Of a stretch of DNA of 64,000 nt, positions 33,005-44,691 are shown one piece after another. How positions within the stretch are numbered: position 1 is the first letter of the stretch; the number at the start of each line of letters is the position of its first letter. Position numbers and translations under genes: made by a program. Source of the DNA: Pseudomonas synxantha BG33R (lineage in GTDB: Bacteria > Pseudomonadota > Gammaproteobacteria > Pseudomonadales > Pseudomonadaceae). A model generated the notes under the pieces. It was not told the origin of the DNA, ran no database searches, and saw only the letters and a program-made list of their open reading frames with translations. The stretch covers positions 6,014,498 through 6,078,497 of the forward strand of contig NZ_CM001514.1 in assembly GCF_000263715.2 (NCBI RefSeq), in the 5' to 3' direction.

Positions 33005-33728
33005 AATTTCCGCCCTGCATAAGTATTACGGCGATCATCACGTCCTCAAGGGCATCGACCTGACGGTGGAAGAGGGCCAGGTTGTGGCGATCATCGGCCG
33101 TAGCGGCTCGGGCAAGTCCACCTTGCTGCGTACCCTCAATGGCCTGGAGTCGATCAATGACGGTGTGATCGAAGTCGATGGCGAATACCTTGATGCCGCC
33201 CGCGCCGACCTGCGCAGCCTGAGGCAGAAAGTCGGCATGGTGTTCCAGCAGTTCAACCTGTTCCCGCACCTGAGCGTCGGCGAAAACGTGATGCTGGCAC
33301 CGCAAGTGGTGCAAAAAGTGCCCAAGGCCAAAGCGGCACAGTTGGCCAGGCAAATGCTCGAACGCGTTGGGCTGGGCGAGAAGTTCGACGCCTTCCCCGA
33401 TCGGCTGTCCGGTGGTCAGCAGCAACGAGTCGCCATTGCCCGCGCGCTGGCCATGTCACCCAAGGTGCTGTTGTGCGATGAGATCACCTCGGCCCTGGAC
33501 CCGGAGTTGGTCAATGAGGTGCTCAGCGTGGTGCGTCAACTGGCCAAGGACGGCATGACGCTGATCATGGTCACCCACGAAATGCGCTTTGCCCGGGAAG
33601 TTGGCGACAAGCTGGTGTTCATGCACCAGGGCAAGGTGCATGAAGTCGGCGACCCGAAGGTGCTGTTCGCCAGTCCGCAAACCCCCGAGCTCGCCAACTT
33701 CATCGGCTCGGTTGAACAGCCGGGCTGA
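32991..33728 (+). CDS. ABC transporter ATP-binding protein
   Basis: 245-residue ATPase of the HisP/GlnQ class: Walker A GRSGSGKSTLLR, Q-loop VFQQFNLFPHLSV, signature LSGGQQQRVAIARAL and Walker B VLLCDEITSALDPE. The ATG at 32991 follows an AGGAGA site. It is last in the importer operon. Its 3' end overlaps the convergent pilus gene by 29 bases. Confidence 0.93.
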   Translation: MPLLRISALHKYYGDHHVLKGIDLTVEEGQVVAIIGRSGSGKSTLLRTLNGLESINDGVIEVDGEYLDAARADLRSLRQKVGMVFQQFNLFPHLSVGENVMLAPQVVQKVPKAKAAQLARQMLERVGLGEKFDAFPDRLSGGQQQRVAIARALAMSPKVLLCDEITSALDPELVNEVLSVVRQLAKDGMTLIMVTHEMRFAREVGDKLVFMHQGKVHEVGDPKVLFASPQTPELANFIGSVEQPG

Positions 33729-34233
33729 CCAGCTCGAAGCTGCCCTGTCCGTCCAGTACCGTCTGATTGCGTACCTGCAGGGCGGCTGGGGAAAGGTCGG
33801 TGTCGATGTCGACCTGGGCAGTCAATTGCTTTCCAGCCGTTTGCGCCACCAGGACCTGGCCCGGTAACAACTGCCCGCTGGCACTCTCACCGGGCACGTG
33901 TGACAGCGCCCACCCAACGGCACGCCCGTCCACTTGGGCATGCTTGAGCGTCAGGCGAAAACGCCCCTCACGCCCAAAACGAAAGCCCTGGCCATCCGCT
34001 GCTCCGGTAAATCGTAATGCCATTGCCGAAGGCTCTGCGCAAAGTACGCTCAGGTGCACCGTGCGCGTACCCAGCACGACTGAGGGGCTTTCGTCCAATG
34101 CCTCCTGGCGAATAACGCCATAGTCGATACGCGGCTGGCTTATAGACAGTCGGCAGTTTTCAGCGCGCACGCCCTCAGCCAGCAATACGCCACAGAGCAG
34201 TACGAACCCCATGCTTTTCAGCTTAGCGATCAT
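33700..34233 (-). CDS. Minor pilus subunit of the chaperone-usher operon
   Basis: 177 residues from ATG at 34233, which overlaps the usher stop. A signal peptide (MIAKLKSMGFVLLCGVLLAEGVRA) precedes a Cys-containing fimbrial domain (CRLSISQPRIDYGVI, second Cys in LSVLCAEP), giving the usual N-terminal disulfide of pilus subunits. As the last gene after the usher it could be a tip or terminator subunit; it lacks an obvious two-domain lectin adhesin layout. Confidence 0.72.
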   Translation of the reverse strand: MIAKLKSMGFVLLCGVLLAEGVRAENCRLSISQPRIDYGVIRQEALDESPSVVLGTRTVHLSVLCAEPSAMALRFTGAADGQGFRFGREGRFRLTLKHAQVDGRAVGWALSHVPGESASGQLLPGQVLVAQTAGKQLTAQVDIDTDLSPAALQVRNQTVLDGQGSFELVSPAVQPSR

Positions 34234-36724
34234 GGCACACCGCCGATGTTGTCTCATAGAACTTGTCATTGTCGGGTTGAGTCTCGGCGGTAAGGCTTAG
34301 CAGGCAGGAGGAAGAGTCCGGCAATGAAACACGCAGGGTTTGCGAGTCGTTGAGGTCGTTCAGGAAAATCATGCCCTCACCCACCACACTGGTCAGGAAA
34401 CGATTGTCCTTGCCGAACACCGAGGCGCCCTGAGGCAACGGCCGCCCTTGCTGATCGTGGACGGTGAGCAGCACACGGCGCACTTTGACCACATCGAATG
34501 CCACGGTATTGAAAGACCCCCGGCCGGCGGCGAGCACATGGGTACCGTTTTTCAGGTCAACACGCTTTGGCAGCGACTGGGTCTGCACTTCGATGCGACT
34601 GTTGGTGTACGCGGGCAAGCCAGGTATAACGGCCTGCCCGCTGAAATCGGTCCACACCGGGCCTTGCGGGGTGTCGATTCTTGCAGCGCCGATATCCCCT
34701 ACCGAGGCAATACCAAACGTGTCCTGCACGGCATACGGCGAAAAGGTTACTCCGCCTCCGTGCGCCACCACGCCGCCTTGCAACTGCCCCGTGTAGTTGG
34801 TGCTCAGCGGATCGCGACTAATCCCCAGGCCGATCCGGGTATAACGAGGCATCAGATCCACCTGGCCACGTACCGATTGCTCGCGGGCACTGAGATCGCG
34901 CTCGATACCCACCTCGTAATTCACATACTCATTGACCCGCTCACTCAACGCCGTACCGGCACGAGACTGATCCCCGCGACGACGGATATAGCTGTTCACG
35001 CGACGATCACCGCCCAGGGGCACGCTGACCTGCAGGCGCACGGACAACTCATTGTCCCGGGCCGTTTCGCGCCGGCTGCCGACACCGTTGGCGTCGCGGC
35101 GCGAATGAGTACCGCCCACCTGCGAGTCGGCGACCAACGCGACATCGACACGATTGAACGATTTATTCCATGACGCAAACACGTGCTCAGCCGTTTGCCC
35201 GTCGACTTGAGAACTGCGTGTATAGCCCAGGGAAAATGCGCCCAGCGTGGTGTCGACCCAGCTAACGCCCGCCGTGTACTGATTCTTGAAGCGCGAGTCC
35301 AGCACGTCGGCCTTGGTCGGCCGGCCCGCTTCAAGTACCTCGCGATACCCTCGGGTCTGCGTGGTTGCGCTGAGGTTAAGATCTATATCGGCGTACACAG
35401 GACTGCTGACGGACACGCTGCTGCGTGACCCGGATACGGCATTACGACTATCCCGAGACACGTTATGGCGTGCACCTACAGAAACCCGCTGGAAAAACAC
35501 GCTGCTCAGGGTACCGCCTGCCGACCAGTATTCATCGGTGTTCAACAAGCCAAAGCCGGCCGAGGAGTCACGGCCCAGGCCCCACGTGCCGCTGGCCATG
35601 GCGACTACCGGCGACGGGGCTTGCTCATGCTCGTTCTCACGCACCTTGCCAAGGGAGAAATAATAGCCTGGTACCGCTGGCGCAGCCCCTGCGAAGGAGG
35701 CCGCCGGCACCACGAAACTGCGCCTGGCGCCCCGCACATCGATGACGCTGACCTCCAGGTCGCTGGTGCCGTTGAGCAACGACAAGCCCGTCAGCCGGAA
35801 GGGTCCTTCGGGCACCAGCGTGCTGTGGATCAACACGCCTGACTGGCGCACTTCAATCCGCGACTGGCTCTGGGCCAACCCCTCTACCACCGCATTGTTG
35901 CTGCCCGCCGGTGCACGCGATTGGCCATCGGGGGAAAACTGCACTCCAGACAGCTGGATGCCGCTGAACAGCGGGTTATTGCTGGAGAGCTGACCCACTT
36001 GAAAAGTCGATTGCAACGCGGCGATATCCCGCTGGGCATAGGCATACAGGTGCTCGGTACGGGCCGTCCCATTGTCAGAGACATAGAATTGGCGACTGCG
36101 AACAATCCAATCACCCAGGTTGAAACCCGCCTCGGTATTGGCCGAAACGAACCGGCTGGGCCCACTGCTCGAATGGCTGTCAAAACCCTGCACGTCATAG
36201 TTGAACAGCGCCGCCGCGCCACCCCGGGCGAACTCCCCGGCCTCCCATTGCGGCTCACGCAGGGCCGCGGTCGGCACCACCAGCGCTACCTCATCGCTGC
36301 CGGGCCGCAGCCGCACCATCGTCGTCGGGAAAACCCCGAGGAAGTCGTGGCAGGCCTGATCCTTGGTGGCTGCTTCGCCAACGATGCCAGCGGGTTTCAC
36401 CAACCCGGCTTTTTCCAGCAGCCCAGGGGTAAAACACAATTGTCCTTGCGAGTCGAACCTCGCATCCACAAGCCCGAGCGGGTTTCCGTTGACCCGCAAC
36501 CCCACCACATGAACACCTTCGCGAAAACGCGCGGCTGTGCGGAAGTAATCAGAGACTTTCGGGTCAATGCCGTGCGTGGTCAATGCCGCAAGGTCGAAGC
36601 CTTCGCCCAACTCCAACGCAGGAACAGCGCCAGGCAAGCTCCACAATGTCGCAACGCCCATGAGCAGCGAGGGTCGACGGGACCAAAACGAGGTCATTAA
36701 TGGTTTACGCGACAGGTTTGTCAT
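34223..36724 (-). CDS. Fimbrial outer-membrane usher protein
   Basis: 833-residue FimD/PapC-type usher that accepts chaperone-subunit complexes and assembles the pilus through a 24-strand barrel. It has a signal peptide, an N-terminal chaperone-binding domain (VGLRVNGNPLGLVDARFDSQG), a plug/barrel core (LEVSVIDVRGARRSFVVPAASF) and C-terminal domains (GRPLPQGASVFGKDNRFLTSVVGEG). The ATG at 36724 lies seven bases after the chaperone stop. Convergent with the ABC operon. Confidence 0.92.
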   Translation of the reverse strand: MTNLSRKPLMTSFWSRRPSLLMGVATLWSLPGAVPALELGEGFDLAALTTHGIDPKVSDYFRTAARFREGVHVVGLRVNGNPLGLVDARFDSQGQLCFTPGLLEKAGLVKPAGIVGEAATKDQACHDFLGVFPTTMVRLRPGSDEVALVVPTAALREPQWEAGEFARGGAAALFNYDVQGFDSHSSSGPSRFVSANTEAGFNLGDWIVRSRQFYVSDNGTARTEHLYAYAQRDIAALQSTFQVGQLSSNNPLFSGIQLSGVQFSPDGQSRAPAGSNNAVVEGLAQSQSRIEVRQSGVLIHSTLVPEGPFRLTGLSLLNGTSDLEVSVIDVRGARRSFVVPAASFAGAAPAVPGYYFSLGKVRENEHEQAPSPVVAMASGTWGLGRDSSAGFGLLNTDEYWSAGGTLSSVFFQRVSVGARHNVSRDSRNAVSGSRSSVSVSSPVYADIDLNLSATTQTRGYREVLEAGRPTKADVLDSRFKNQYTAGVSWVDTTLGAFSLGYTRSSQVDGQTAEHVFASWNKSFNRVDVALVADSQVGGTHSRRDANGVGSRRETARDNELSVRLQVSVPLGGDRRVNSYIRRRGDQSRAGTALSERVNEYVNYEVGIERDLSAREQSVRGQVDLMPRYTRIGLGISRDPLSTNYTGQLQGGVVAHGGGVTFSPYAVQDTFGIASVGDIGAARIDTPQGPVWTDFSGQAVIPGLPAYTNSRIEVQTQSLPKRVDLKNGTHVLAAGRGSFNTVAFDVVKVRRVLLTVHDQQGRPLPQGASVFGKDNRFLTSVVGEGMIFLNDLNDSQTLRVSLPDSSSCLLSLTAETQPDNDKFYETTSAVCHDR

Positions 36725-36731
36725 GGGTCGA

Positions 36732-37448
36732 TCAACCCCTATCGGTATTGATCGAGGCCCGATAGCTGCCCGCCGAAAAGCCGTAGACCGTGGCTGGCTG
36801 CATCTCAACTGCAGTCATACCCTCCAATAGCCCTTCAACCGTCAATGCCAACGTTTCACCTGGCAAAACGTATGCACGCGGCAAAGTAGCTGGGGTTCCT
36901 TGCGGAAGTATCTGCACCTGCGGCGCCAGGCGCACTACGTATGCACTGTCGTTGTGAACCATGAGACGCTCTCCCACACGCCTCCACTCCAGCAGTTCCC
37001 ATGGAGAATGATGCTCAGGCAGGCCGCGTGGGTGCAGGATCAGCGGCAAACTCTGCCGAAGGGTGATACCAATGGTCGCAGCGCCAGCCGCACGCGCCTG
37101 GGGGATACCCTCGAAAGTCACGCGTTTCAACCGCTGGATCTTCAATGGTTCCTTCAAGGTGCTGATGAAACGGACCAACTGGGTTTCACCCGCCTCTACT
37201 CGCGTAATGGGAGGTGTCACAATCAATAGCGGCTCCACATCCTCGGGCATGTTGTGCACGACGGAATGAAGCAGCGCGGGCGCCGCATCAGTATTTTTGA
37301 TATTCATCGTGGCCTCCCCTTGTTCTTCGTAGAGCAAGACCACTGTTGTTTCCGGCAACATTCCATCCGCCGCCGCAATGGGGATAAAACACAACCCCAC
37401 ACTTGCACAAAATACAAAAGCACAATTTTTTACTGAAAGGCCATTCAC
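36732..37448 (-). CDS. Periplasmic pilus chaperone (PapD-like)
   Basis: 238-residue chaperone donating a strand to pilus subunits in the periplasm. It has a signal peptide (to AAADG), the first Ig domain with ITRVEAGETQLVRFIS and the G1-type RLKRVTFEGIPQ region, and a second domain from about residue 140. The start is GTG at 37448 after a GGGGGAAA site. The two-domain layout is right for PapD, though the EEQG strand and subunit-cleft residues are divergent from type 1 chaperones. Confidence 0.85.
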   Translation of the reverse strand: MNGLSVKNCAFVFCASVGLCFIPIAAADGMLPETTVVLLYEEQGEATMNIKNTDAAPALLHSVVHNMPEDVEPLLIVTPPITRVEAGETQLVRFISTLKEPLKIQRLKRVTFEGIPQARAAGAATIGITLRQSLPLILHPRGLPEHHSPWELLEWRRVGERLMVHNDSAYVVRLAPQVQILPQGTPATLPRAYVLPGETLALTVEGLLEGMTAVEMQPATVYGFSAGSYRASINTDRG

Positions 37449-37543
37449 TCAGTTTCCCCCAAACTTGAAACTGACTACTTGTTGTAGCCAGAAAAAACAG
37501 CCGATAAGAAACGGACACTTTCTAACCAGCTGTATTTTATTTC

Positions 37544-38206
37544 TTAGAGTTCGATGTAGCTCAATTCAAGGGTTGCGCGCCCATCAAGGGTAATCTCACG
37601 GCCCAAGTCCAATTTCGTGCTTTTGTTAATAACCGGCCTCACCGCGATAGTGCCGGTCAGTTGAGTAATGGAGGCCGGAGTGTTGGCCGTACTGCTGCGC
37701 CACGAATGCTGACTAGGCGATTGGGCGACTTTACCGTCACCGCTCTGCCAGGCACCTGACCCGACACGCATGATGGGATACAGGGTTGTGGTCGGCGACC
37801 GAAGGTTTTTGAGAGTGATCGCAAATCCACCGGTCTTACGACCGGATACAGCGCCCAAGCCATAGTTGTGTGCCTCGGTGTAGCCTCCTCCAAGCACATT
37901 GAGAATGCCCGGCACCTTACTGCCGGACTGCAGGTCAACAAACTTCAGCCCGAAACGAGCGGCCGTGGTTCCGCAACTGACGGTCAGGGGCGTGGTCTTT
38001 TCCGCCAGCGGAGTGAACGCTGTAGGAGACAGCTGCCCAGAGGGAATGTCGCCATAGTTGATAATACCGCCACCGGTCATACTGAGGCTGCACGCGGCGG
38101 GCTTGATGGTACCCCTGACGATCAATTCGGCACTGGTGGATGCATGGGCGTTGAGAGCTGCAGCGAGATAAGCAATACCAAGAGTCAAACCAACAATTTT
38201 TTTCAT
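37544..38206 (-). CDS. Major pilus subunit, DUF1120 family
   Basis: 220-residue exported protein. A signal peptide ends near HAS; then AELIVRGTIKPAACSLSMTGGG, with a second Cys in TVSCGTTAARFGLKF, forms the fimbrial disulfide. The C-terminal strand ATLELSYIEL fits the penultimate-aromatic pilin pattern. The ATG at 38206 is preferred over an in-frame TTG two codons upstream. First gene of the operon subunit-chaperone-usher-minor subunit. DUF1120 assignment is by recall of the pattern. Confidence 0.8.
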   Translation of the reverse strand: MKKIVGLTLGIAYLAAALNAHASTSAELIVRGTIKPAACSLSMTGGGIINYGDIPSGQLSPTAFTPLAEKTTPLTVSCGTTAARFGLKFVDLQSGSKVPGILNVLGGGYTEAHNYGLGAVSGRKTGGFAITLKNLRSPTTTLYPIMRVGSGAWQSGDGKVAQSPSQHSWRSSTANTPASITQLTGTIAVRPVINKSTKLDLGREITLDGRATLELSYIEL

Positions 38207-38654
38207 ATTCAACCTGTCACTGAAATTTATCAGGCATGTTTATTTCGGCCTTGAAGATACAAGGTCATAAATAAATAACACCACGGCAAAATTGCCGAGT
38301 GACAGTCTGTCGCTTTGGCACTTCACTGAAGAATAAGACGACACTCCAATTATCGTGGGATCGATAAAAACAAACTGTGGGCCAAGCCTCTCCCAGCAGT
38401 AGTCTTAAACAAAAAAACAAATAGAATATCGAAGCTTAGTTTGTAGGCGAAATCATAATCGGCGATAAAACAGCTCTAAGTTAAAAACTCCTACAGCCCT
38501 CACGTATACACCAACAGAAGCCCGGAACGGCAACCTACCTTTCCGTCAGGGATTGCTTACAGACAACCTCAGAGAGCTTCCCGAAGCACTACGCGTTGGC
38601 GTCAGCGGTCGATCGTGGCACGATGGCAAGGTTATCGACCGAGATCCCCAAACC
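38207..38654. other. Intergenic region between pilus operon and ppx
   Basis: About 450 bases, clearly AT-richer than the flanks, containing the divergent promoters of the pilus operon and ppx. A small inverted repeat cggcaa-aa-ttgccg lies at 38284-38297. No gene, REP or terminator was found. Confidence 0.5.
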
Positions 38655-40157
38655 ATGCCGCAATCCCAAGCCAAGAATCTGTCCTTGATCGCCGCCATCG
38701 ACCTGGGCTCCAACAGCTTTCACATGGTCGTGGCCAAGGCCCAGAACGGTGAGATCCGCATCCTTGAGCGGCTCGGCGAAAAAGTGCAACTGGCCGCCGG
38801 GATCGACGACGAGCGCAAGCTCAATGAAGAATCCATGCAGCGCGGGCTCGACTGCCTCAAGCGATTTGCGCAATTGATCAATGGCATGCCGCCTGGCGCC
38901 GTGCGCATCGTCGGCACCAACGCGTTGCGCGAAGCCCGAAACCGCAATGAGTTTATCCATCGTGCCGAGGAAATCCTCGGGCACCCGGTGGAAGTTATCT
39001 CTGGCCGTGAAGAGGCGCGCCTGATCTACCTCGGCGTTTCCCACACACTGGCCGACACGCCCGGCAAACGCCTGGTGGCGGACATTGGTGGCGGCAGTAC
39101 CGAGTTCATCATCGGCCAGCGTTTCGAGCCACTGCTGCGTGAAAGCCTGCAGATGGGATGCGTGAGCTTCACTCAACGTTACTTCAAGGACGGCAAGATC
39201 ACGCCGGCGCGCTATGCCCAGGCTTACACGGCGGCGCGGCTGGAGATCATGAGCATTGAACATGCCCTGCACCGCCTGACCTGGGATGAAGCCATCGGCT
39301 CGTCCGGCACCATCCGCGCCATCGGTCTGGCCTTGAAGGCTGGCGGCCATGGCACTGGCGAGGTGAATGCCGAAGGTCTGGCGTGGCTCAAGCGCAAGCT
39401 GTTCAAGCTGGGGGATGCGGAGAAAATCGACTTCGACGGCATCAAACCTGATCGCCGCGCCATTTTCCCTGCGGGCCTGGCGATTCTCGAAGCCATCTTC
39501 GACGCCCTAGAACTGCAACGCATGGACCACTGTGACGGCGCCCTGCGCGAAGGCGTGCTCTATGACCTACTGGGCCGTCATCACCACGAAGACGTGCGCG
39601 AGCGCACCCTCAGCTCGCTGATGGAGCGCTACCACGTCGACCTGGAACAAGCCGCCCGTGTGGAGCGTAAAGCCTTGCACGCTTTCGACCAGGTGGCCGC
39701 CGATTGGGACCTGGAAGACGGCGTCTGGCGCGAGCTGCTGGGCTGGGCTGCCAAGGTGCATGAAGTGGGCCTGGACATCGCCCACTACCATTACCACAAG
39801 CACGGCGCCTACCTGATCGAGCACTCGGACCTGGCTGGGTTCTCCCGCGAAGACCAACAGATGCTCGCGCTGCTGGTGCGCGGCCATCGCCGCAATATTC
39901 CCAAGGACAAATTTGCCGAATTCGGCAAAGACGGCATCAAGCTGATTCGCCTGTGCGCGCTGTTGCGCTTTGCAATCCTGTTCCACCACATTCGTGGCAC
40001 CCAGGAAATGCCCCAGGTAAAACTGCGCGCTGCTGATGACAGCCTGGAAGTGATCTTCCCCAAGGGCTGGCTGGATGAAAACCAGCTGACCCAGGCGGAC
40101 TTCGCCCAGGAAGCGGAATGGCTGACGCGGGTGGGGTTCAGCCTGAACCTGCGCTGA
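38655..40157 (+). CDS. ppx: Exopolyphosphatase
   Basis: 500-residue Ppx/GppA phosphatase that releases phosphate from the ends of polyphosphate. The actin-like ATPase motifs are [16 protein letters not shown] at the start and [15 protein letters not shown] near residue 140. The C-terminal HD-like half contains [20 protein letters not shown]. The start [10 protein letters not shown] at 38655 matches the family, and the long upstream in-frame extension looks non-coding. Its partner ppk lies convergent beyond a 2.2-kb insertion; the last 37 bases are duplicated at 42357. Confidence 0.95.
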
Positions 40158-40180
40158 ATCGAATCTAAAGCACACCGCAA
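40121..40180 (+). repeat. Left copy of a 60-bp direct repeat (ppx 3' end)
   Basis: The final 37 bases of ppx plus 23 bases downstream. About 51 of 60 positions match the copy at 42357-42415. It marks the left border of the inserted block between ppx and ppk. Confidence 0.85.
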
Positions 40181-40725
40181 CAGGCGCTAGTACCGACCGG
40201 CACCGTTTCTATTCGCCGCAGGCGCCTGCCGGCCAAGCGTATCGTATGGTTGGGTGCGGGTGGCTGGCTTATACGGCTGACCGTTTCCCGGACTACGCTC
40301 AAGCAGCGCCCGGATCTTCCCGCCCATTGGTATGCATGCCTGATCGAGTATTCGATAGACGACAAGCCCCACACCTGTCAGACCTCATTGATTGACGCCA
40401 AACGTTACCCTGTCCATCAGGTGGCACGGCATACGGGTTGCGCCGCAAGGCCTAATCGTCCTCTGGTGGCTCAAGCGATGACCAACGCGCTACGGATCTG
40501 CCCGCTGAAACACTAGGTACTATTCCTAAGCGGCTGGTAGAACTGCGTACCCAGGCCCAACACTTCATGTTGCCGTCCTCTGCGTGCCAATCAGTGGTAC
40601 ATACCTGTCAATTATGACAGTTGTACACGTCTGCGGATTAAGTTCCACTGCGTCTTAGACCTCATGCGTAACAGGTAGTAGCGCAGAGAACCTACATACC
40701 GTACCGCTCCAGGGAAGGGTTCACG
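40158..40725. other. Region after ppx without a clear gene
   Basis: 568 bases. An open stretch on the + strand (about 40250-40516, ending CPLKH) and another on the minus strand (40165-40374) give no recognisable protein and lack good ribosome-binding sites. The right part holds the lux-box-like palindrome at 40603 and the probable promoter of the secreted repeat protein. I consider the left part non-coding or gene debris. Confidence 0.45.
40603..40622. promoter_or_regulatory. lux-box-like palindrome
   Basis: ACCTGTCAATTATGACAGTT has perfect inner arms CTGTCA/TGACAG with a 4-base centre and fits the CT-N12-AG frame of LuxR-type (las/rhl) operators. It lies 104 bases before the start of the secreted repeat protein, a distance compatible with overlap of the -35 region. 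Confidence 0.5.
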
Positions 40726-41967
40726 ATGAAATCATCCGTTATGATCATTCTAGGATTTGGCCTCTACGCTACTGGCTTGAGCGTTGCTCATGCAGCTGCA
40801 TGGGTGCCGTTTTCCGCAACCGCAGGTGCGCAATGCGCACCGGTCGACATCAATAATACCGGCATTACAGCGGGTAATTGCCGACCGGCCAGCACTACCG
40901 CCAACAATGTCGCATGGGTAGCCGACGGTGCCGCACACGGCGCTCAGAGCGCACTGACCTCATTGGCGAGCGGGCAACCTTGTAGTGCTTCTGCATTGTC
41001 CAATAACGGAAAAGTGATGGGTAACTGTAACGACGCCAGCAACTCTAATTTTGGAGTGGTCTGGACTGCGACATCCCCAGCCGTCGCGCCCATAAAGCTG
41101 GATTCGCTACCCGCAACGCTGTTAATACCCCTGCTGCGCCCCAAAGATGTCGCCACCAATGCCGTAGCGATCAACGATCGAGGCGACGTGGCAGGTTCAA
41201 GCCTGGATGCCGACAACCAGGGAACCGCAGTATTTTATGCCAATGGCAGCGGCACCCCTGAACGCGTGTCCAATTGGGGGGACAATTGCGCCGTTGCGGA
41301 TGTTAACTTGCCCACTACTGGCACCCCGCAGCTCGCTCTCAATTGCCCTAACAATGCTGGTAACACCACTGCTCGGGTCGCGGAAAAAAATGGGGCGTCC
41401 TATAGCATGACTGATCTGGCACTGCCCACCGGCGCCAGCTATTGCACGGTCACCCGTGCTATTAATGCCTCCAGCTTCGTCGGAACATGCATTTATCCCA
41501 ACTCGGCAGTGAACGTGACGAAAAGTGCATTCTGGAGCAACAAGACTGCTGCGCCGGCAGTCCTGTCGCTCTCTTCTGGTTCCAAAAACATGGCCCTCGG
41601 TATTAACGAGGCCGGCCGAGTGTTGGTCTCCCAATCCACCGTAGATGGCCGAAATCAGTACATGATGTGGCTGCCTTCGCCGTTACCCATCCCGATCATC
41701 GCGATCATTCCTTTACCAACTGGTAGCGCATGGGGAGAAGCAGGCGCGATTACCAGTGGTGAAATCGTCGGGCTGAATGTTCTCAATAGTGACCAATACT
41801 CACAGGGTTGCACGTGGACGCAATCGGCAGGAACCGTCTGCTTGCTACCGATTAGCGGAGGCAAAAACAGCGAAATTAGAGCCGTTTCCAAAAACGGTGC
41901 CTACATGACGGGCATGGTCCTGAACGCCACGCAAACTGCAATCGCTGTTACTACGACGTTACCCTGA
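40726..41967 (+). CDS. Secreted protein with about eight HAF-like repeats
   Basis: 413 residues with a signal peptide ending near AHA. The mature part consists of about eight units of 40-50 residues with the pattern (C)..v.dIN..G.v.G.(C)....a.vW: VDINNTGITAGNC, SALSNNGKVMGNC, VAINDRGDVAGSS, TRAINASSFVGTC, LGINEAGRVLVSQ, GAITSGEIVGLN and RAVSKNGAYMTGM. In several units two cysteines bracket the turn, suggesting disulfide-pinned beta-propeller blades. This resembles the HAF extracellular-repeat group, whose function is unknown. Codon use and GC are lower than in neighbours, consistent with transfer. A GGGAAGGG site precedes the ATG. Confidence 0.75.
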   Translation: MKSSVMIILGFGLYATGLSVAHAAAWVPFSATAGAQCAPVDINNTGITAGNCRPASTTANNVAWVADGAAHGAQSALTSLASGQPCSASALSNNGKVMGNCNDASNSNFGVVWTATSPAVAPIKLDSLPATLLIPLLRPKDVATNAVAINDRGDVAGSSLDADNQGTAVFYANGSGTPERVSNWGDNCAVADVNLPTTGTPQLALNCPNNAGNTTARVAEKNGASYSMTDLALPTGASYCTVTRAINASSFVGTCIYPNSAVNVTKSAFWSNKTAAPAVLSLSSGSKNMALGINEAGRVLVSQSTVDGRNQYMMWLPSPLPIPIIAIIPLPTGSAWGEAGAITSGEIVGLNVLNSDQYSQGCTWTQSAGTVCLLPISGGKNSEIRAVSKNGAYMTGMVLNATQTAIAVTTTLP

Positions 41968-42029
41968 TAGCAACGATGGTGAGTAAACGAAATCTTTGCA
42001 CTGCTGGTTGCACTAAAAGGAGTTCACAG

Positions 42030-42329
42030 ATGAAACACACAATGGTAATCACCGGTTTCCTATGCAGCTGGGTTGTTTTCCTGGCTGTTATGCCAGACGC
42101 TGCGCAGGCCAGAGGATTTCACAGCGGCACATTTTACCCAGGCGGCAGTTGGAGCGATGACCCAGGCCCGCGCTTTATAGAAAATTGGTTCGCACCGAAA
42201 GAAAAAGAACCAACCCCTGTGAATGCCACTTCTGTTAAAGAAGCCAACGGAACTACCCCCGATTGTCAATATGGATATCGATGGGCACGCGCGCGTCCTG
42301 ATGACCCCATCACAAAGATTTCTTGCTAA
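42030..42329 (+). CDS. Small secreted protein (99 residues)
   Basis: The signal peptide MKHTMVITGFLCSWVVFLAV...AQA is followed by a mature part of about 70 residues. It is rich in Gly/Pro/aromatics at its start (GFHSGTFYPGGSWSDDPGP), charged in the middle, and has two cysteines near the end (PDCQYGYRWARARP and terminal SC) that could form a disulfide. The ATG at 42030 has a good AAAAGGAG site; an upstream in-frame reading without a signal peptide is less likely. It is 62 bases after the repeat protein and probably co-transcribed. No recognised family. Notably AT-rich. Confidence 0.7.
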   Translation: MKHTMVITGFLCSWVVFLAVMPDAAQARGFHSGTFYPGGSWSDDPGPRFIENWFAPKEKEPTPVNATSVKEANGTTPDCQYGYRWARARPDDPITKISC

Positions 42330-42356
42330 GTCTCACTAACCACGAAGGGCCGAGGG

Positions 42357-42415
42357 GCTGACGCGCATGGGATTCGGCCTGAACCTGCGCTGAGCCGATC
42401 TAAAGAACACCGAAA
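42357..42415 (+). repeat. Right copy of the ppx 3'-end direct repeat
   Basis: Encodes LTRMGFGLNLR and stop, against [11 protein letters not shown] and stop in ppx, followed by the same downstream bases (atctaaag.acaccg). It carries no ppx upstream sequence, so it is a tail fragment. It marks the right border of the insertion, four bases before a REP. Confidence 0.85.
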
Positions 42416-42418
42416 TAC

Positions 42419-42452
42419 AAATGTGGGAGGGGGCAAGCCCCTCCCACATTTT
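42419..42452. repeat. REP hairpin before the ppk 3' end
   Basis: Arms aatgtgggagggg and cccctcccacatt around gcaag, followed by a short T-run. Just 17 bases from the ppk stop, it may serve as the ppk transcript end. Confidence 0.8.
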
Positions 42453-42468
42453 TAGACTTTGCCGGGTT

Positions 42469-44691
42469 TTAGTTCACCGCAAGAATCGGGCTACCCAACT
42501 TCTCCAGCAACGTCGCCTGCGCGCTGCGCGGGTTCTGGTTGCCGGTCGGGGTGTTGCGTACATAACGCCCGTCCGATTGCAGGCTCCAGCTGTGGGTGTT
42601 GTCGGTGAGGTAGCTTTCCAGCTCCTTCTTGACCCGCATGATCAGCTTCTTGCCTTCCACCGGGAAGCAGGTCTCCACACGCTTATCGAGGTTGCGCTCC
42701 ATCCAGTCGGCGCTGGAGAGGAACATCTGCTCTTCACCGCCGTTGAGGAAGTAGAACACGCGGGTGTGCTCCAGGAAGCGGCCGATGATCGAGCGCACGT
42801 GGATGTTATGCGACACGCCGACAATACCCGGGCGCAGGCAGCACATGCCACGCACCACCAGATCGATGCGCACGCCCGACTGGCTGGCCTTGTACAGCGC
42901 GCGGATGATCTTCGGATCGGTCAGCGAGTTGAACTTGGCGATGATGTGCGCCGGCTTGCCATCGAGGGCAAACTGGGTCTCGCGGGCAATCATGTCGAGC
43001 ATGCCCTTCTTGAGGGTGAACGGCGCGTGCAGCAGCTTTTTCATGCGCAAGGTCTTGCCCATGCCGATGAGCTGGCTGAACAACTTGCCGACGTCTTCGC
43101 ACAGTGCGTCGTCGGATGTCAGCAGGCTGTAGTCGGTGTAGAGCTTGGCGTTGCCGGCGTGGTAGTTCCCGGTGCCCAGGTGGGCGTAGCGCACGATCTC
43201 CCCGGCCTCGCGGCGCAGGATCAACATCATCTTGGCGTGGGTCTTGAAGCCGACCACGCCGTAGATCACCACCGCACCGGCTGCTTGCAGACGGCTGGCC
43301 AGTTGCAGGTTGGACTCTTCGTCAAAGCGCGCGCGCAACTCGATCACCGCGGTGACTTCCTTGCCGTTACGCGCAGCATCCACCAACGCATCGACGATTT
43401 CCGAGTTGGCGCCACTGCGGTAGAGGGTCTGGCGCACGGCCAGAACATGCGGGTCCTTGGCGGCCTGGCGCAGCAGATCGACCACCGGGGTGAACGACTC
43501 GAAGGGGTGCAGCAACAGAATGTCCTGCTTGCTCACCACGCTGAAGATGTTCTCGCTGTTTTGCAGCAGTTTCGGGATCTGTGGCGTGAATGGCTTGTAT
43601 TGCAGCTCCGGATGGCTGTCCAGGCCGGTAATGCTGAACAGGCGCGTCAGGTTCACCGGGCCGTTGACCTGGTACAACTCGGATTCGGCAAGGTTGAACT
43701 GCTTGAGCAGGTAGTCCGACAGATGTTTGGGGCAGGTATCCGCCACTTCCAGACGCACCGCATCGCCATAACGCCGCGAGAACAGCTCGCCACGCAGGGC
43801 ACGAGCCAAGTCTTCGACGTCTTCGGAATCCAGCGCCAGGTCGGCGTTACGGGTCAGGCGGAACTGGTAGCAGCCCTTGACCTTCATGCCCTGGAACAGG
43901 TCATCGGCGTGGGCATGGATCATCGACGACAGGAATACATAATTGTCGCCAGCGCCCCCTACCTCTTCCGGTACCTTGATGATACGTGGCAACAGGCGCG
44001 GGGCCGGGATGATCGCCAGGCCCGAATCGCGACCGAAGGCATCGATACCTTCAAGCTCGACGATGAAGTTCAGGCTCTTGTTCACCAGCAGTGGGAACGG
44101 GTGCGTAGGGTCCAGGCCGATGGGGGTGATGATCGGCGAAATCTCGTCCCGGAAGTAACGGCGCACCCAGGTCTTGATCTTGGCGGTCCAGTGACGACGA
44201 CGAATGAAGCGGACCTGATGCTTTTCCAGTTCCGGCAGCAGGATGTCGTTGAGGATTGCGTACTGGCGGTCCACATGGCCATGTACCAGCTCACTGATGC
44301 GCGCCAACGCCTGGTGCGGTTGCAGTCCGTCGGCCCCGGCTTGTTCGCGGGCGAAGGTGATCTGCTTCTTGAGGCCGGCAACGCGAATCTCGAAGAACTC
44401 ATCCAGGTTGCTGGAGAAAATCAGCAGGAATTTCAGCCGCTCCAGCAACGGGTAGGACTCATCCAGCGCCTGTTCCAGCACACGGATGTTGAATTGCAGT
44501 TGTGACAACTCGCGATGGATGTACAGGCTGCTGTCATCCAGGTTGGTGACCACGGCCACCGGTGCCGGCGCAGGTGCTTCGGCAACCACCGCTGGCGGGG
44601 CAGGCTCCAGCTCCGGTGGGGTCTGGGAAACTTGTTCAACCACCGGGTGAGCGTCTTTTACGGCAACTTCGGAGAGTCCTTCGGTATTCAT
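42469..44691 (-). CDS. ppk: Polyphosphate kinase 1
   Basis: 740-residue PPK1, which polymerises the terminal phosphate of ATP into polyphosphate. The N-terminal domain has [19 protein letters not shown] and the head domain [12 protein letters not shown]. The catalytic region [20 protein letters not shown] contains the autophosphorylated His. The PLD-like C-terminal domains include [27 protein letters not shown], quoted in part. The first 60 residues are an Ala/Pro/Val-rich extension before the conserved start. It is 18 bases downstream of hemB. Confidence 0.96.

Follow-up and report, generated by a model that had tools for sequence, protein, structure and literature searches.

From our analysis of a 64,000-nucleotide (nt) window, which is the whole stretch of DNA considered here (bases 6014498-6078497 of the 6.3 Mb single-contig Pseudomonas genome G000, hereafter the own genome), we conclude with very high confidence that the segment between ppx (exopolyphosphatase) and ppk (polyphosphate kinase) is an insertion into a spacer that is normally short. 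The best explanation of the whole, towards which we lean, is that an accessory module was recombined into this spacer through repetitive extragenic palindromic (REP) elements together with a decayed ppx tail, and that it carries an operator which would be bound by a LuxR-type regulator. The features, in positions of the window, are as follows.

38655-40157, + strand: intact ppx (exopolyphosphatase), its 3' end being the left repeat copy; open reading frame (ORF) with the start set from the Pseudomonas simiae homologue, named as in an earlier, sequence-only reading of this DNA
40113-40182, + strand: left tail and native linker, ending where the REP of relatives begins; from the repeat and the spacers of relatives
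40184-40429, + strand: relic of an IS4-family transposase, an N-terminal piece joined to a C-terminal piece through an internal deletion; from tblastn
40603-40622, + strand: 20-base palindrome ACCTGTCAATTATGACAGTT, a lux-box-like candidate operator 104-123 nt 5' of the start codon
40726-41967, + strand: predicted secreted beta-propeller-like protein of 413 amino acids (aa), weakly HAF-repeat-like; from the ORF and a structure model
42030-42329, + strand: small, predicted secreted protein of 99 aa with a C-terminal Cys; from the ORF
42349-42420, + strand: right repeat copy, with decayed ppx tail, stop, and linker; from the repeat
42421-42454, strand not assigned: REP element with an inverted repeat; from the repeat and relatives
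42469-44691, - strand: intact ppk (polyphosphate kinase); from the ORF, named as in the same reading

An insertion in the ppx-ppk spacer

The ppx-ppk query matched all 199 genomes searched (own genome included), and spacers were examined in 48 relatives, i.e., 46 with loci among the matches listed and two fetched later as sisters of G032 and G052. In 44 of the 48, the closest relative found included, the spacer measured 57-416 nt and held a single ppx tail, which agrees with the claim of the sequence-only reading that DNA had been inserted between the two genes. With the own 36-base tail as query, the best second-tail score in these 44 short-spacer relatives was 20/36, against 32/36 in the window. 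The closest relative, G237 (ppx 97.3% identical over 1546 bases and ppk 95.5% over 1410 bases), has a spacer of 126 nt; relative to it, 40182 is the last base of the native linker and the foreign segment extends from 40183 to about 42420-42432, G237 homology resuming at 42432, and both ends of the foreign segment coincide with REP. The DNA between the tail copies is AT-richer than the flanking genes, as had been noted before (GC content of 0.547 in the insert at 40183-42348 and 0.537 in the module at 40600-42329, against 0.616 in ppx and 0.606 in ppk). Searched against 144 relatives (the own genome among them), the module DNA matched the own genome only, a DNA search being one that would miss diverged copies; a plasmid search using the insert DNA and an Rfam scan of 39900-42700 gave no match. 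An import tract within ppk was also considered and set aside, no clear tract being seen.

The four remaining relatives (G032, G052, G142, and G190, one clade on the ppk tree) have spacers of 1645-1737 nt with different cargo, a minus-strand gene of 499-501 aa which falls in the Pfam family Amidase (217.8 and 219.4 bits for the two copies scanned; cut-off 27). The amidase gene is read toward ppx (8250-9755 in L272, 8208-9707 in L273, 8752-10251 in L274, and 8489-9991 in L275). The ppx-ppk spacer has received at least two kinds of cargo. The recombination hotspot envisaged in the earlier reading is seen as empty single-tail sites and as other cargo, but not as other cargo between two tails, the amidase-carrying clade having a single tail too (second-tail score 19-20/36).

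The repeated ppx tail and the origin of the insertion

The 3' end of ppx had been described as recurring at the far junction with about 51 of 60 matches, and this description stands: the ungapped direct repeat (40113-40162 and 42349-42398) agrees at 41/50 bases (82%), and a gapped alignment of 42356-42415 (60 query bases) with the left copy agrees at 85%. A short match due to chance can be dismissed, the best of 200 dinucleotide-frequency resampled sequences reaching 29 (mean 25) against the 41 seen. The left tail is an ordinary ppx tail and sits in a stretch of 97% identity to G237. The right copy, rightly taken for a diverged ppx tail with its stop, has G in place of W where W stands in 46/46 distinct tails (a set with the own left tail and that of P. 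simiae), M in place of V where V stands in 45/46, and G in place of S at a codon that is never G in the 46; over 86 columns its identity to G237 is 76%. Because conserved codons are changed, and this set of three changes is seen in none of the 46 tails read, the right tail looks more like the product of non-coding drift than like the end of a functional donor ppx. The ppx of G237 differs by less than 3%, and so a duplicate formed since the split from G237 should not show 18% divergence. The tail arrangement either predates that split and was lost in G237 or arrived already old, and we favour import; the segment was probably imported along with a tail already old, and not freshly duplicated.

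A second carrier was found by a search of genome contigs, which gave 10 pattern-matching stretches and one confirmed locus, that of P. simiae CCUG 50988. Its ppx-ppk spacer likewise holds both genes (74% nt identity over 1370 bases comprising the operator and the propeller gene), with one ppx tail only (second-tail score 19/36), a REP pair 5' of the module, and a REP 3' of it; the transposase relic of the own genome has no match there. On a ppk tree of 82 rows, the neighbours of the own genome are G121 and G187 and that of P. simiae is G120, and all three have short spacers.

We propose that 40183-42420 is an accessory module in which a lux-box-like operator precedes two genes, one for a secreted beta-propeller protein and one for a small secreted protein; recombination at a REP element would have brought it into the spacer, the crossover presumably passing through REP or linker homology. 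The module would have arrived with, or beside, an older copy of the ppx tail that had already decayed into non-coding DNA, and it also holds a dead IS4-family fragment. A Campbell-type route is possible but doubtful: the module would have circularised in a donor together with the ppx tail and REP of that donor; one crossover at the recipient REP would have produced the order tail-REP-module-tail-REP, and the left REP would later have been lost, possibly to the IS4 fragment. In favour, REP marks both junctions, REP-like repeats flank the P. simiae module, and the left spacer of P. simiae can be aligned with the G120 spacer over the REP pair and for about 12 bases past it. However, the left REP is absent in the own genome, and the right flank of P. 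simiae, tried as a ppx linker and rejected, bears only a marginal resemblance to one (shuffle test with nine linkers; fractions below 0.04 for 4/9 and 0.06-0.66 for 5/9, the value of 0.66 belonging to its own left linker).

An ancestral presence of the module in the spacer, followed by loss in most relatives, is distinctly unlikely. Its occurrence at the same place in two species would fit, but about seven losses (counted by eye) would be needed because the rows nearest each carrier on the ppk tree have short spacers, and two acquisitions or a transfer is fewer steps; between the own genome and P. simiae, moreover, the module is 74% identical against 94% for ppk and 89% for ppx.

The sequence-only reading saw no transposase, which was mistaken, as a deleted IS4-family fragment lies at 40184-40429. 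It corresponds to approximately residues 60-90 fused to residues 281-320 of intact transposases (best tblastn E of 7e-10 in a search against this 568-base stretch alone) and is 41% identical to plasmid transposases annotated as IS4 family (E of 9e-4). The likeness to IS4-family insertion sequences lies in these N- and C-terminal transposase pieces; unlike them, the relic is dead, has an internal deletion, and shows no recognised ends. No inverted repeats of at least 16 bases bounding the module were found, shorter ones not being excluded. Of the two origins first suggested, the better fit is the recombination with a foreign ppx tail left behind, and the other, a transposable element which duplicated about 60 bases of its target with later drift of the copies, is very unlikely: the flanking direct repeats and the enclosed IS4-family relic would suit it, but the transposase is a deleted fragment, no such inverted repeats bound the segment, target duplications of insertion sequences are usually far shorter than this repeat, the copies are 18% apart with changed conserved codons although the closest relative differs by less than 3% in ppx, and P. 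simiae has a single tail.

Cargo proteins

Both ORFs between the tail copies have signal-peptide-like N termini (judged by eye), in line with the two secreted proteins claimed earlier, and Pfam gave no family above cut-off for either. The AlphaFold2 model of the 413-aa protein (mean predicted local distance difference test score, pLDDT, of 87.7) is all-beta, and its top Foldseek matches in PDB are beta-propellers, with the Photorhabdus lectins first and a template modelling (TM) score of about 0.45; a PDB sequence search with alignment A2 gave no match. The model supports a beta-propeller-like protein, as a fold class only: the Photorhabdus PLL/PHL lectins are likewise beta-propeller structures and lead the Foldseek list, but the identity to them is approximately 10% at that TM score. 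Like the HAF repeat proteins (TIGR02913), the protein appears to be secreted and has short AIN-x-x-G-x-VxG-like repeats (by eye); unlike them, it scores 12.4 bits, below the cut-off of 22.65. That it binds surface or host sugars is a guess based on the fold.

Relatives of the 413-aa protein were found in 22/398 genus genomes (own included), with identities down to 25%. Besides those of the own genome and P. simiae there are 25 propeller loci, none of which has ppx or ppk within about 1.5 kb on either side. A small-protein gene follows the propeller gene in 6/27 loci (own and P. simiae included; twice in L045); apart from the own copy, a relative of the small protein is found behind the propeller gene in P. 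simiae and at four further chromosomal loci.

A candidate operator and its probable LuxR regulator

The propeller gene is preceded by the 20-base palindrome ACCTGTCA-N4-TGACAGTT, a dyad of the size and position of a lux-type box, which is very probably an operator. Its core, CTGTCA-N4-TGACAG, lies within 350 nt upstream in 26/27 homologue loci (own and P. simiae included; 20 exact and 6 with one mismatch), against 4/281 control windows, L055 being the sole homologue locus of the 27 without it. The four central bases vary, and TTGT follows the palindrome on the gene side in 16/26 and on the far side in 1/26. There are 14 palindrome sites in the own genome and none for the reversed control. When 56 sites from seven genomes were checked against mechanically called ORFs, 38/56 had an ORF start no more than 250 nt downstream (control 375/2194). 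Among 10 proteins beside own-genome sites, Pfam found a tyrosinase and an FKBP above cut-off; 10 site-linked proteins chosen from other genomes included an M60-like peptidase, two DUF5122 propellers, and a VRP1 protein, the other six having no match. Three palindromes (L112-L114; G000:C1:4416349-4418092) fall within 1.8 kb, with an FKBP gene on one side and the 3' end of a gene judged by eye to be flhB-like on the other, and flhB-adjacent palindromes were also seen in G124 (L144) and G196 (L139).

It is unlikely that the palindrome is an RNA hairpin, a terminator, or a recombination site instead of an operator. In L044, L058, and L059 it does form the apex of a terminator-like hairpin, but the placement of 38/56 sites upstream of ORF starts, the variable central bases, the TTGT asymmetry, and a presence that goes with that of a luxR gene, clean losses included, all argue for an operator. 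At those three loci, upstream of the propeller homologue, the palindrome tops a long hairpin with A and T runs outside, and operator and terminator may be combined there.

A LuxR-family regulator is present in the own genome (G000:C1:5428986-5429693, with Autoind_bind and GerE domains), encoded between fpr and rlmG, i.e., flanked by the ferredoxin-NADP reductase-like gene and the methyltransferase gene that mark the PpoR-type subgroup A. We searched the same 199 genomes with alignment A1 of six fpr-linked LuxR proteins. All 92 genomes with a match of E <=1e-79 had at least two palindrome sites, against 19/107 of the others. In G088 (L268) and G177 (L267), fpr and rlmG enclose a luxR that is broken over two frames, through natural mutation or sequencing error, and after moving these two, at least two sites were present in 94/94 genomes with the fpr-rlmG luxR against 17/105 others; the Fisher value of 5e-38 ignores kinship and is not to be taken as a probability. 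Where the best LuxR match was weaker (E of 1e-41 to 1e-78), 6/39 genomes had at least two sites, two of them being the frame-split true copies. In G092, G061, G071, and G073, which are nested among carriers on the ppk tree, fpr adjoins rlmG with no luxR between them and no site is present; the branches of G092 (87/33) and G061 are poorly supported, and G071 and G073 form a pair. Outside the carrier group, G023 likewise has fpr adjoining rlmG, no luxR, and no site. These apparent luxR losses partly meet the objection that the co-occurrence reflects kinship, and we think it likely from these gene patterns that the palindrome is the operator of the fpr-linked LuxR. The PpoR-type LuxR would bind the palindrome, and both cargo proteins would be made and exported when this regulator is active.

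Discussion

Several observations weigh against the import of a LuxR-controlled module. Beside the insert, ppk is 94.8-97.5% identical to G237 with no step. The comparison proposed earlier, of the right tail with the ppx of other strains, was answered in part: its best DNA match in 398 genomes is G359 (93% over 55 bases), and no donor of the tail was found in those genomes, which leaves a foreign origin putative. The link between LuxR and palindrome is one of co-occurrence, with an E cut-off (1e-79) set post hoc, and the fpr-rlmG position was read in only 8/94 genomes (six loci among the 92 and the two frame-split ones). Among the 105 genomes without an fpr-linked luxR, 17 still have 2-9 sites (e.g., G068, G085, G151, G183, and G194). 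As to the operator, 12/56 sites lie inside ORFs of at least 100 aa (control 1989/2194), the palindrome is inside a terminator-like hairpin in the three loci named above, and a simple scan found no sigma-70-type promoter. Another LuxR may use the same box in the 17 exceptional genomes. A PsaR3-like LuxR was tried as the candidate in these and 26 other genomes and was rejected, the only strong match being in G183, the source of the query.

The same core within an 18-20-base dyad is found in the afe-box of AfeR of Acidithiobacillus ferrooxidans, GCTGTCAA-NN-TTGACAGC, which differs in belonging to a distant bacterium and in lying upstream of the signal synthase gene afeI (available portion of PMC3759942). 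In the accessible part of PMC8546723, LuxR-solo subgroup A is defined by the same neighbours as here, occurs in almost all fluorescent Pseudomonas species analysed, and has a mechanism that is termed unknown, and for Ppu16R of P. putida 16A neither its own gene nor the neighbouring ones yielded a regulated promoter; a microarray list was given for P. putida PpoR (PMC2703642, in part), and the fprB-ppoR-rlmG context is listed in PMC10134790 (in part). The own LuxR resembles these proteins in its gene order (ferredoxin/flavodoxin reductase, luxR, rRNA methyltransferase) and in its Autoind_bind and GerE domains; unlike in the available portions of those three papers, which give no operator, a palindrome and candidate targets are predicted here. 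A literature search with the palindrome sequence, variously spelled, gave no match, and no report of the site in Pseudomonas was found in a partial coverage of the LuxR, LuxR-solo, and PpoR literature (including PMC7683790, PMC1766932, and PMC11543582).

Apart from the insertion, a fimbrial-like operon (named by eye; 33600-38500) to the left of ppx is 63-81% identical to the closest relative, against 93-97% for its flanking genes, and it is diverged likewise from two further relatives, so that it looks like a hypervariable locus.

The insertion itself is ordinary but instructive accessory DNA in a REP-containing spacer, which in another clade holds an amidase gene. The operator outweighs it, as it offers a predicted binding site and regulon for a LuxR-solo subgroup whose mechanism is reportedly unknown. 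On balance, and by a slight inclination, sequence comparison suggests that the PpoR-type LuxR solos of Pseudomonas may bind ACTGTCA-N4-TGACAGT and drive a regulon that is dispersed over 2-26 sites per genome and abounds in secreted orphan, repeat, and beta-propeller proteins, and that modules may move between loci and species with their own operator, so that new cargo would join the regulon on arrival, as beside ppx. In essence, a 20-base site, candidate promoters for each genome, and species that have neither the regulator nor the sites make the question of what this regulator controls a testable one.

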